The notes below the pieces were generated by a model. The model was not told the DNA's origin, made no database searches, and saw nothing but the letters and a program-made list of their open reading frames with translations. Shown piece after piece: positions 5,864-8,891 of a stretch of 42,517 bases of DNA. The position numbers and the translations under genes are program-made. The stretch covers positions 1 to 42,517 of the forward strand of contig JAFGVM010000025.1 of assembly GCA_016937995.1 (NCBI GenBank), read 5' to 3'. Each line of letters starts with the position of its first letter. Position 1 is the first letter of the stretch. This stretch comes from Candidatus Delongbacteria bacterium (GTDB lineage: Bacteria > UBA4055).

Positions 5864-6190
5864 ATGGCAGCACTACACGTAACAGACGAAACATTTGAGC
5901 AAGAAGTAATTAAATCCGACATTCCAGTATTAATAGACTGTTGGGCGGAATGGTGTGCACCTTGTCGAATGGTTGGTCCGACAATTGAAAAATTAGCAGA
6001 TGAATTTGCCGGAAAATTCAAAATTGCAAAACTGGATGTTGACAGTAACAGAGAAACTTCAATGAAATACAGTATTACATCGATACCGACAATGTTAATA
6101 TTTGTAAACGGTGAAGTTGTTGACGGGTTGATAGGAGCTCATCCAGAAGGAAACATTAGAGCCAAGATCGAGCAATATTTGGGGAAATAG
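5864..6190 (+). CDS. trxA: thioredoxin (cytosolic)
   Basis: A 108-residue single-domain thioredoxin that reduces protein disulfides in the cytosol. The active site is WCAPC (Cys31, Cys34) in place of the usual WCGPC, an atypical Ala at the first X that would be expected to shift redox potential. An additional Cys26 precedes it. The cis-Pro loop SIPTMLIF is present, and there is no signal peptide. GGAG at 5853-5856 gives a good ribosome site for the ATG at 5864. It is the first gene of a redox operon behind the promoter at 5784-5814. The next gene follows after 73 bases. Confidence 0.93.
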   Translation: MAALHVTDETFEQEVIKSDIPVLIDCWAEWCAPCRMVGPTIEKLADEFAGKFKIAKLDVDSNRETSMKYSITSIPTMLIFVNGEVVDGLIGAHPEGNIRAKIEQYLGK

Positions 6191-6263: not shown

Positions 6264-6695
6264 ATGTATAAACAAACAACATTGATATTATTATTCGGTT
6301 TAATTTTACCACTTATAGCTGCCAACAAGAATCTAACAATACTAAGTGATGATAATTTCAAAAAGGAAGTTTTAGAATCTGAACAGATAGTCCTTGTGGA
6401 TTTTTGGGCACCATGGTGTGGTCCCTGTAAAAAATTGGGACCTATAATTGAAGAACTGGCGAATGAAAATAATAATATAAAATTTACGAAGCTAAATGTA
6501 GATAACAGTAAAAAAGTTGCTGGTAGTTATGGAATTAGATCTATACCAACTGTAGCAATTTTTAAAGATGGAAAACCGATTGATGGATTTGTTGGTCTTA
6601 AATCAAAATCCGAGATAGAGACAATTTTAAAAAAATATTCACAAAAAGCAGAAACTAAAAGTACAGAAAAGTCTATGCCGAAAAAAAATAATTAG
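6264..6695 (+). CDS. exported thioredoxin-like protein
   Basis: A 143-residue thioredoxin with an N-terminal hydrophobic signal (residues 6-19, LILLFGLILPLIAA), so it is probably periplasmic or membrane-anchored. The canonical active site WCGPC lies at Cys52/Cys55 and the cis-Pro loop SIPTVAIF is intact. A Lys/Ser-rich tail of about 20 residues follows the fold (KAETKSTEKSMPKK). It pairs with the cytosolic thioredoxin upstream and ends two bases from the start of the DUF6132-like gene. An extracytoplasmic disulfide reduction role is inferred. No membrane electron donor (DsbD/CcdA type) is visible unless the small membrane protein downstream contributes. Confidence 0.85.
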   Translation: MYKQTTLILLFGLILPLIAANKNLTILSDDNFKKEVLESEQIVLVDFWAPWCGPCKKLGPIIEELANENNNIKFTKLNVDNSKKVAGSYGIRSIPTVAIFKDGKPIDGFVGLKSKSEIETILKKYSQKAETKSTEKSMPKKNN

Positions 6696-6696
6696 T

Positions 6697-6888
6697 ATGA
6701 AATTTGTTTTTTTTAAATTTTTTGTTATATTGTTATCAGGGGGATTAGGATACGCATATTATTATTTTATTGGATGTAATACTTCAGGCTGATCGATAAC
6801 GTCTAGCCCGTGGGGTTCAATATTATATGGGTTGATGTTCGGCTATCTATTCTCTTCTTATGTTAAAGAAAACAAAAGTAACGAGTGA
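6697..6888 (+). CDS. DUF6132-like small membrane protein with in-frame TGA (candidate selenoprotein)
   Basis: Reading from the ATG at 6697 to the TGA at 6886 gives 63 residues with one internal TGA at 6790-6792 (codon 32). The N-terminal half is a membrane helix ending GGLGYAYYYFIGCNTSG. After the TGA the frame continues SITSSPWGSILYGLMFG with a second helix. From memory, DUF6132 proteins have the pattern GC-x-SG-x-C-PITSNP-x-x-S-x-LYG, so the TGA falls on the second conserved Cys and Cys27 is the first. Both halves are conserved, which argues for read-through as selenocysteine and against random decay. The gene starts one base after the upstream thioredoxin stop. Alternatives are a sequencing error (TGC or TGT to TGA) or a nonsense mutation. 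Function in the family is unknown; redox context is clear. Confidence 0.7.
6805..6817 (+). promoter_or_regulatory. possible bacterial SECIS hairpin
   Basis: AGCCC (6805-6809) pairs with GGGUU (6813-6817, one G-U pair) around a GUG loop. The first loop base is G, and the loop begins 17 bases after the in-frame TGA at 6790-6792. As I recall the bacterial SECIS rules (loop G near the 5' side, 16-37 bases from UGA), this fits, although the stem is short. An alternative fold pairs 6787-6793 with 6801-6808, with one bulged U, and includes the UGA in the stem. Confidence 0.4.
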
Positions 6889-6890
6889 AG

Positions 6891-7337
6891 ATGAAAGTAA
6901 TTGGAACGCAAAATGGTTATATGTCTCTGGATATAGTTCAGGATGGTTTTCATATAGTCGTTGATGCAGATAAGAAAGTTGGTGGAGAGAATAAAGGTCC
7001 TACTCCTAAAGGTTTGCTGCTTAGCGGACTTGTTGGATGTACCGGAATGGATGTGGCCTCGATTTTAAGAAAAATGAAAATAGAGTATTCTAAATTGGAA
7101 TTATCAGCAGAAACAGAATTAACGGAAGAGCATCCAAAAGTATTTAAAGAAATAACTATAACATATTATTTGGAAGGAGATACAGGTTTAGATAGGGCTA
7201 AAATTAGAAGAGCTGTAGAATTGTCTATGACCAAGTATTGTGGTGTTACTGAAATGTTAAAAAAGAATAGCGACATAAATTACTCAATCTATTTAAACGG
7301 GGAGGAAATCAATGGCAAAGAAAGTGTATCAAAATGA
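6891..7337 (+). CDS. OsmC/Ohr-family peroxide-reducing protein
   Basis: A 148-residue OsmC-like protein. Family members reduce organic hydroperoxides with two cysteines: here Cys50 (in SGLVGCTGMD) and Cys117 (KYCGVTEM) occupy the expected positions. I prefer the ATG at 6891, two bases after the stop of the preceding small gene, to a GTG at 6885 that adds only two residues. The 3' end overlaps the ArsR-type regulator gene by 26 bases. Co-transcription with two thioredoxins suggests these supply reducing power. This clade (YhfA-like, generic OsmC) is not proven to be a peroxidase. Confidence 0.85.
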   Translation: MKVIGTQNGYMSLDIVQDGFHIVVDADKKVGGENKGPTPKGLLLSGLVGCTGMDVASILRKMKIEYSKLELSAETELTEEHPKVFKEITITYYLEGDTGLDRAKIRRAVELSMTKYCGVTEMLKKNSDINYSIYLNGEEINGKESVSK

Positions 7338-7641
7338 TCATGTGGAAATCGCAAAAGCTTTTAAAGTTTTAGCTAATCCAAAAAGGATCAATCTTTTACT
7401 GGCTCTTAGAACTGAGTCTTGTAGAGTTGGAAATCTGCAGGAATGCATCAATGAACCATTTCCGATCATTTCTCAGCAACTTGCAATTCTGAGGAAGAAA
7501 GGTGTCGTTTCTAAGACAAAGAACAAGAAGAATGAAGCTTATTATTCAATTGATGATGAGTTCACAAACAAGCTTCTTGATCTTATTTTAAAGCATGATA
7601 AAGAGAACGAAGGTAAGAAAAAGACAAAGAAAAAGAAGTAA
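7312..7641 (+). CDS. ArsR/SmtB-type winged-helix transcriptional regulator
   Basis: A 109-residue DNA-binding protein. The winged-helix core is plain: KAFKVLANPKRINLLLAL, the recognition helix ISQQLAILRKKGVV, and a wing KNKKNEAYYSI. Two cysteines (Cys37 and Cys45) flank the helix-3 region, near where ArsR members place metal or redox-sensing thiols (ELCVCDL position), so it may sense metals, reactive sulfur or oxidation. The tail is Lys-rich. GGGGAGG (about 7299-7305) gives a strong ribosome site although it lies within the OsmC gene. It probably autoregulates the thioredoxin operon. The operator was not identified. Confidence 0.85.
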   Translation: MAKKVYQNDHVEIAKAFKVLANPKRINLLLALRTESCRVGNLQECINEPFPIISQQLAILRKKGVVSKTKNKKNEAYYSIDDEFTNKLLDLILKHDKENEGKKKTKKKK

Positions 7642-7694: not shown

Positions 7695-7715
7695 AATAAA
7701 GGGTCTTTATTTTTT
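7695..7715 (+). terminator. intrinsic terminator of the redox operon
   Basis: AATAAAG and CTTTATT form a 7-base stem with a GGT loop, followed by a run of six Ts (7710-7715). It lies 54 bases after the ArsR-type gene and overlaps the stop codon of the convergent mnmH gene. Confidence 0.6.
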
Positions 7716-8891
7716 AAATTGGTGTATGATAGAAATTATATCTTCTATGGTGTCATCAGTGTTTCTATTGTCAATTTCTGCGACAATATTCTTATATTTA
7801 CCGGCATATCTTTTGTCGTAATATTCAACCAGTATCCATTTTATAAATTCTTCATACCTGCCTGAATTTAATAATTCTAAAAGTTCTGACACTTTTTTAC
7901 TTCCAAGTAATTTTTTGAAAAATGCCGATCTTTCGACAGTTGAATAAACCGATTCAACTCCATTGCCTGAGAAATATTCATTCCGTATTCTTTCTATTCT
8001 GAGTTCAATAAGTGAATTTATCTTTATTGTTGGAGAGAGCAGCATTTGCTGATAAAAAGGATCAGGAATGTTAAATTTACTGATCTTCTTGCTTTCTCCC
8101 TCAGATAAAAATGGATACGGAGATTTATTAGAAGAAATTATCTGAGTAAATAAATTATTTTCGAATTGTGATTGTGATAACGGGATCGAATTACTCTTAA
8201 GTTCATAACGGATATGGCCGAATAAGCTGGAAGCATGTCCAGCTGCTTTCTCAATATCAAGAACAGGATAATCGGAACTGATCTTTTCTAGGATCTCTGT
8301 TTTACCGCATCCAGTGAGTCCTGTAAGAATAATAAGTCCGTTCTTTATTTTTGAATTACTCTGTAAATATAGTTGTTCAAATATTTTACTTCGGTAAGCT
8401 TTGTAACCCCCTTCTATTTTAACAACATCAGCACCGTATTTTTTCAGATATGAATAACCTGCAGTGCTTCTTCCTCCGCCTCTCCAGCAATATACGAAAA
8501 TGGTATTACCATGATAATTGTCAACTATATTTTTAAGTTCTTTTTCTTTTTTATCCGCGTATTTTAATGCTAAAAATAAAGCAGCTTTTGGTGAGAATTG
8601 TTTATATAAAAAACCTACTTCATCTCTTTCATCATTATTCAGAATTGGAAAATTAATTGCATTAGGAAGTTTATCATCGAGAAATTCACTTTCAGATCTT
8701 AGGTCCAAAGTAATTAATTTATGGTTTAAACGATAAAGTTCGATCCATTCATCAATAGTGATAGTATTGATACTACTTTCATTAAAATGATCTTTGAAAG
8801 AGTTTGGTAATTTATCAATATCAGTTGAGTTATTTCTAACAAATTCGACCAGTGCTGAACGGTCTTTTTTTTTCATTGAATTAATATTCAT
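7707..8891 (-). CDS. mnmH: tRNA 2-selenouridine synthase
   Basis: A 394-residue two-domain protein (also called SelU/YbbB). The N-terminal rhodanese domain (about residues 45-170) carries the catalytic Cys135 in VYCWRGGGRS. The C-terminal part begins with a P-loop GLTGCGKT (about 190-198). The enzyme replaces sulfur by selenium in the wobble 2-thiouridine of Lys, Glu and Gln tRNAs, via a geranylated intermediate, with selenophosphate as donor. Its presence implies a selD gene elsewhere and hence selenium metabolism in this organism. The start overlaps the upstream membrane-protein gene by 11 bases. Length and motif order match the family. Confidence 0.9.
   Translation of the reverse strand: MNINSMKKKDRSALVEFVRNNSTDIDKLPNSFKDHFNESSINTITIDEWIELYRLNHKLITLDLRSESEFLDDKLPNAINFPILNNDERDEVGFLYKQFSPKAALFLALKYADKKEKELKNIVDNYHGNTIFVYCWRGGGRSTAGYSYLKKYGADVVKIEGGYKAYRSKIFEQLYLQSNSKIKNGLIILTGLTGCGKTEILEKISSDYPVLDIEKAAGHASSLFGHIRYELKSNSIPLSQSQFENNLFTQIISSNKSPYPFLSEGESKKISKFNIPDPFYQQMLLSPTIKINSLIELRIERIRNEYFSGNGVESVYSTVERSAFFKKLLGSKKVSELLELLNSGRYEEFIKWILVEYYDKRYAGKYKNIVAEIDNRNTDDTIEDIISIIHQFKK

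Follow-up and report, generated by a model that had tools for sequence, protein, structure and literature searches.

The 42,517-nucleotide stretch analysed here (the window) corresponds to contig C68 in the 99-contig, 2.75 Mb assembly of a Candidatus Delongbacteria genome (G000), and the forward strand of the window carries a redox operon that opens with two thioredoxin genes. The first of these (5864..6190; 108 aa) bears a WCAPC motif and matches PF00085 at 1.1e-29 and TIGR01068 at 115 bits against a cut-off of 96.8, and the second (6264..6695; 143 aa; WCGPC) matches the same models at 3.3e-31 and 121 bits and has an N-terminal hydrophobic, signal-like segment (MYKQTTLILLFGLILPLIAANK). A DUF6132-family gene (6697..6888) starts one base past the stop of the second thioredoxin gene, and the ATG of an OsmC-family gene (6891..7337; PF02566, 2.4e-20; conserved Cys in GCTGMDV and KYCGV) lies two bases past the DUF6132 stop. 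The OsmC gene in turn overlaps that of an ArsR/SmtB-family regulator (7312..7641), which matches NF033788 at 58 bits (cut-off 55) and scores 43 bits with the BigR model, below its cut-off of 155. The regulator contains the motif SCRVGNLQEC, with two Cys residues where the classical ArsR metal/thiol sensor motif sits, and this feature is conserved in relatives. The convergent neighbour on the reverse strand (7707..8891) is mnmH, encoding tRNA 2-selenouridine synthase (NF008750, 277 bits; cut-off 241). These coordinates and matches agree with the first-pass annotation, which had placed the gene one base after a thioredoxin and before OsmC, with mnmH nearby. Since mnmH adjoins the operon in more than one Delongbacteria genus (also L024:2695-3873 and L016:113-718), selenium users cluster at this site.

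Under a standard-code reading the DUF6132 product ends after 31 residues, and gene finders therefore miss genes of this kind. Translated over its whole length, the frame gives MKFVFFKFFVILLSGGLGYAYYYFIGCNTSG-U-SITSSPWGSILYGLMFGYLFSSYVKENKSNE-stop, in which the TGA at 6790-6792 is the sole internal stop, as had been claimed at first pass, and a second TGA (6886-6888) terminates the gene. With U read as C, the protein matches Pfam PF19628 (DUF6132) at E 3.6e-6 and 27.0 bits, against a gathering cut-off of 23.2, and the match (residues 10-53; profile positions 11-54 of 60) runs across the TGA, in keeping with the earlier proposal that the residues on both sides belong to one small-protein family. 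The TGA falls on the second Cys of GC-x4-C-x-IT, likewise as proposed, and the homologous codon of Cys-containing members is TGT or TGC. The family motif in the alignment of homologues, G-C-x3/4-[C/U]-x-[I/L]-[T/S]-x-x-P, lies between two hydrophobic helices. The 63-residue product is predicted to form a two-helix membrane hairpin with a short connecting loop bearing Cys27-x4-Sec32. The AlphaFold model, of mediocre confidence (pLDDT 69.6), is a plain two-helix hairpin (helices 2-26 and 38-61), for which a Foldseek search of the PDB returned no match at E<=0.001.

A search using an alignment of both Sec and Cys forms located the DUF6132 protein in 11 of the 13 Delongbacteria genomes searched. 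The homologous codon is TGA in nine of the 13 (G000, G011, G012, G001, G003, G004, G005, G007 and G008), and two carry Cys forms, encoded by TGT in G009 (L015; GCSSGSCPITSNP) and by TGC in G002 (L037; GCTNGCPISSNP), such that Cys and TGA do alternate at this codon, the pattern for which the first-pass annotation had advised looking. G005 holds two near-identical TGA copies (C71:1050-1241 and C165:56-247), a pair that may reflect duplication or strain variation in a metagenome-assembled genome (MAG). The same codon is also TGA in two Lachnospiraceae, Extibacter muris DSM 28560 and CE91-St61, the latter a complete genome, which brings the total to eleven genomes in two phyla. Such recurrence, both within the phylum and beyond it, marks the TGA of the window as more than chance. 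Neither TAA nor TAG was found at the codon among the homologues inspected. The spacing is C-x4-U in the window and most Sec forms and C-x3-U in two others (L036 and L038); the shorter x3 spacing is shared by the Cys relatives L037 and L073.

Scanning 84,980 species with a pattern limited to the C-x4-U spacing gave nine matches, five of which are true further DUF6132 forms. Three of the five have the same sequence as G011, G008 and G007 (under the names Candidatus Delongbacteria GLR157, UBP11 UBA4055 and uncultured bacterium), and the other two are the Bacillota forms of Extibacter muris DSM 28560 and Lachnospiraceae CE91-St61. The remaining four (L020, L021, L022 and L025) were rejected as chance matches, the family sequence being absent around them. 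A search of 392 Lachnospirales genomes recovered eight full-length Cys homologues and a single TGA form, that of Extibacter. Of 396 Bacteroidota genomes, 107 have a DUF6132 homologue, with Cys in every one inspected; six Bacteroidota matches contain a TGA, and inspection of all six showed this codon to be the terminal stop and not a Sec codon. Plasmids yielded Cys homologues only, in Riemerella, a phage search yielded one unannotated faecal contig, and a scan of viral contigs with a three-sequence alignment yielded no relative.

Conservation extends beyond the TGA, as the first-pass annotation had expected. Over the 24 codons that follow it, pN/pS is 0.07-0.45 in pairs of Delongbacteria and 0.13 between the two Lachnospiraceae, values low enough to rule out a decaying tail; upstream pN/pS was left out for pairs involving L036, in which a one-residue deletion puts the sequence out of register. 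Synonymous divergence in the same Delongbacteria and Lachnospiraceae pairs tends to be lower past the TGA than before it, as structure in the coding RNA would predict, although this is only suggestive.

The genome from which the window derives encodes the complete set of genes, selA, selB, selC and selD, for which a search had been recommended. The gathering cut-off of 47 is exceeded by its tRNA-Sec at 58.4 bits, and SelB (334 bits; cut-off 242), SelA (549 bits; cut-off 268) and SelD (354 bits; cut-off 125) each score above threshold. The selD gene (G000:C37:2048-2968, reverse strand; locus L059) itself has an in-frame TGA at the expected place (FVKAAGUAGK) and therefore serves as an internal positive control for Sec use; a search of this locus against Rfam gave no match. 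Across the phylum, selB lies above the cut-off in 11 of 13 genomes, and both Bacillota genomes carry a tRNA-Sec of 63 bits. Above the respective cut-offs, selB was not found in G005, nor tRNA-Sec in the GLR157 genome of L024, both of which are fragmented MAGs.

The RNA downstream of the TGA contains a candidate bacterial SECIS hairpin, AGCCC-GUG-GGGUU (6805..6817), with its apical loop 17 nt after the UGA. The bSECIS model calls for a hairpin 16-37 nt past the UGA with G in the first two loop positions (PMC13188914), and the window element fits its loop size, spacing and G[G/U] loop rule. It is a weak hairpin (-3.8 kcal/mol; p=0.10 against synonymous recodings), the minimum-energy fold at this place in the window is a different stem from it, and the minimum free energy of the 45-nt region of the window is not significant against synonymous recoding (z -0.6). 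The Lachnospiraceae have GCCCC-GUC-GGGGC at 18 nt, with energies of -7.9 and -9.5 kcal/mol. A hairpin obeying the bSECIS rule occurs in the window and most relatives; none meeting the strict loop rule was detected in L024, L026 and L027, and no bSECIS hairpin was detected in the Cys homologues L015 and L037. Covariation analysis returned a single compensatory column, not above shuffles. A longer consensus stem past the UGA (columns 19-25 with 35-41) was set aside, its variable pairs showing no covariation within Delongbacteria. The SECIS support is accordingly soft, and the hairpin in the window is a candidate.

Taken together, the gene at 6697-6888 very probably encodes a DUF6132-family selenoprotein, which is the best explanation of the locus, and it is extremely probable that SelB, together with Sec-tRNA(Sec), would read the UGA at 6790-6792 as selenocysteine. 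Only one base separates TGA from TGT or TGC and the window comes from a fragmented assembly, circumstances in which a sequencing or assembly error, or a pseudogene that died at the TGA, might be suspected. The same codon is TGA, however, in ten other independently assembled genomes of two phyla; since these represent other species, among them one named isolate and one genome that is complete, a miscalled base is very unlikely. Purifying selection also continues past the TGA and neither of the other stop codons ever takes its place, so that error and decay together retain a very low probability. Reassignment of UGA to another amino acid (Trp or Gly, as in codes 4 or 25) is known for some candidate phyla, and is here the least probable reading of all: three of the 30 genes in the window, and DUF6132 itself, end in TGA, long open reading frames are complete under table 11, aligned homologues have Cys and never Trp or Gly, the Sec machinery is present, and the same TGA occurs in Lachnospiraceae.

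A third proposal, that the UGA is a genuine, regulated stop, draws on the tight packing of the operon. The usual product would then be a 31-residue peptide, and readthrough or selenium-dependent decoding would tune translation of osmC and arsR, a scheme to which the 2-nt gap between the DUF6132 stop and the OsmC start, and the overlap of OsmC with ArsR, lend some plausibility because ribosomes that stop at the UGA could reduce expression of the genes that follow. At the protein level, nonetheless, the residues past the UGA are conserved, among them the ITxxP motif and a second helix that the Cys homologues share, and full-length DUF6132 is thus the selected product. Regulation as the whole explanation is very improbable, if slightly less so than error or reassignment, and a coupling effect of this sort could coexist with Sec insertion.

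Phylogenetic analysis of 34 homologues (61 columns) gave a poorly resolved tree that requires at least two Cys/Sec changes. One of these falls within the pair made up of the Sec form L038 and the Cys form L037 (97/94), which stands outside the main Sec group. Those Sec forms that come from Lachnospiraceae (L019 and L023) fall inside the Delongbacteria Sec group beside L016 (97/88), and this nesting suggests that the gene was transferred horizontally between the two phyla, although its neighbourhood differs in Extibacter, where a 4Fe-4S membrane protein precedes the Sec form and an Rrf2 regulator follows it.

The function is proposed from genomic context. The order thioredoxin, (thioredoxin), DUF6132, OsmC, ArsR is kept in nearly all Delongbacteria genera examined, for Sec and Cys forms alike, and the Cys-form genomes G009 and G002 retain the OsmC-ArsR operon. 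Elsewhere, DUF6132 neighbours include a thioredoxin and a thioredoxin-reductase-like flavoprotein (L052), a CoA-disulfide-reductase-like protein (L049), rhodanese with thioredoxin (L060 and L061), a two-domain metallo-beta-lactamase/rhodanese protein (L062) and a protein disulfide oxidoreductase (L068). In one member of the Lachnospirales (L054:1132-1662, reverse strand) a Cys-form DUF6132 is fused to a rhodanese domain, which points to sulfane-sulfur chemistry. At several Bacteroidota loci (L063, L064, L065, L067 and L068) the protein encoded after DUF6132 is small, bears a CLRCGEPIWGTLE-type motif and looks by eye like DUF1858, a family listed as containing selenoproteins; the L068 protein had no Pfam match at 1e-4.

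The recurrence of thiol redox and sulfane sulfur among these neighbours is the basis for proposing a relay built on the two-helix Cys/Sec hairpin. The Cys/Sec pair would form a reversible selenenylsulfide at the membrane face, which the thioredoxins of the operon would reduce, and the pair would exchange electrons, or sulfane sulfur as persulfide, with partners such as OsmC and rhodanese-type proteins, with the ArsR-type repressor controlling the system. Such a role in membrane thiol/persulfide exchange is put forward tentatively, with a likelihood approaching even. A serious rival, rather less probable, accepts the selenoprotein and assigns it to metal(loid) handling: it would be a transporter subunit resembling MerT/MerF, small and with two helices, in which Cys and Sec form a metal site, and an ArsR/SmtB-type regulator would control it. 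The presence of such a regulator in the operon, a heavy-metal-associated-domain gene adjoining DUF6132 on a Riemerella plasmid, and the listing of a MerT-type protein among selenoproteins (PMC13188914) are all consistent with metal handling. The Delongbacteria operon, on the other hand, has no metal transporter, reductase or MerP-like gene, the genes beside DUF6132 in three phyla encode thioredoxin, rhodanese, OsmC and CoA-disulfide-reductase-type proteins, and no MerT/MerF match emerged from the Pfam search of the DUF6132 protein.

A broader and more speculative synthesis, judged unlikely as a whole, would assign the Sec form of DUF6132 to a selenium-dependent persulfide/thiol relay not described before, in which this two-helix Cys/Sec hairpin would be the membrane component and would act with thioredoxin, OsmC and an ArsR sensor. 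In the same scheme, UGA decoding would couple selenium supply to expression of the downstream OsmC and its regulator, gain or reversion of the Sec form would have occurred on two or more occasions, and the gene may have been transferred between Delongbacteria and Lachnospiraceae. The selenoprotein reading, for its part, would add a family to the prokaryotic selenoproteome and offer a way into the function of DUF6132, a membrane protein that is widespread but functionally uncharacterised. In some species a more reactive selenol replaces the second Cys of the family, and that residue is therefore likely to be an active site for redox or sulfur-transfer chemistry. Because Extibacter muris, which has the Sec form, is a named isolate, this reading is open to test.

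From the sequence comparisons, DUF6132 is almost certainly a new, predicted selenoprotein family. The 119 prokaryotic selenoprotein families tabulated in a May 2026 review do not include DUF6132/PF19628 (PMC13188914); nor is a DUF6132 selenoprotein family listed in the portion of the deep-Sep study consulted (PMC12013277). NCBIfam, which models many selenoproteins, gave no match to the DUF6132 protein at E<=1. Within the open-licence literature searched, PF19628 is unmentioned and the term DUF6132 occurs only in an unrelated paper on a plant transporter. The statement made at first pass that no selenoprotein had been described in this family therefore holds for the literature searched and for the 119-family table.

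The closest counterparts of the window protein are the Cys-containing PF19628 members common in Bacteroidota, which have the same length, helices and motif; those inspected have Cys, whereas the window protein is predicted to have Sec in place of the second Cys. Among known selenoproteins, the YeeE/YedE thiosulfate transporters (GUxSG; PF04143) share with DUF6132 a membrane location, a G[C/U]xSG-type motif and a link to sulfur chemistry, but the likeness is one of motif only: they are larger, multi-helix transporters in which Sec follows the Gly, whereas in DUF6132 it takes the place of the later Cys, and the Pfam search of the DUF6132 protein gave no PF04143 match. The putative mercuric transport selenoprotein MerT (PF02411; C/SxxU) is also a small membrane protein with a Cys/Sec pair, yet it differs in spacing and gene neighbourhood and shows no sequence match. 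The TsoA/B/C/X/Y proteins (NCBIfam; PMC13188914) are likewise selenoproteins of thiol redox; thioredoxin-like and rhodanese/DsbD-like proteins are among them, and a model of an ArsR-type regulator, TsoR, accompanies them. None of the Tso models matches the DUF6132 protein, and the ArsR-type regulator of the window scores 18.8 with TsoR against a cut-off of 115.
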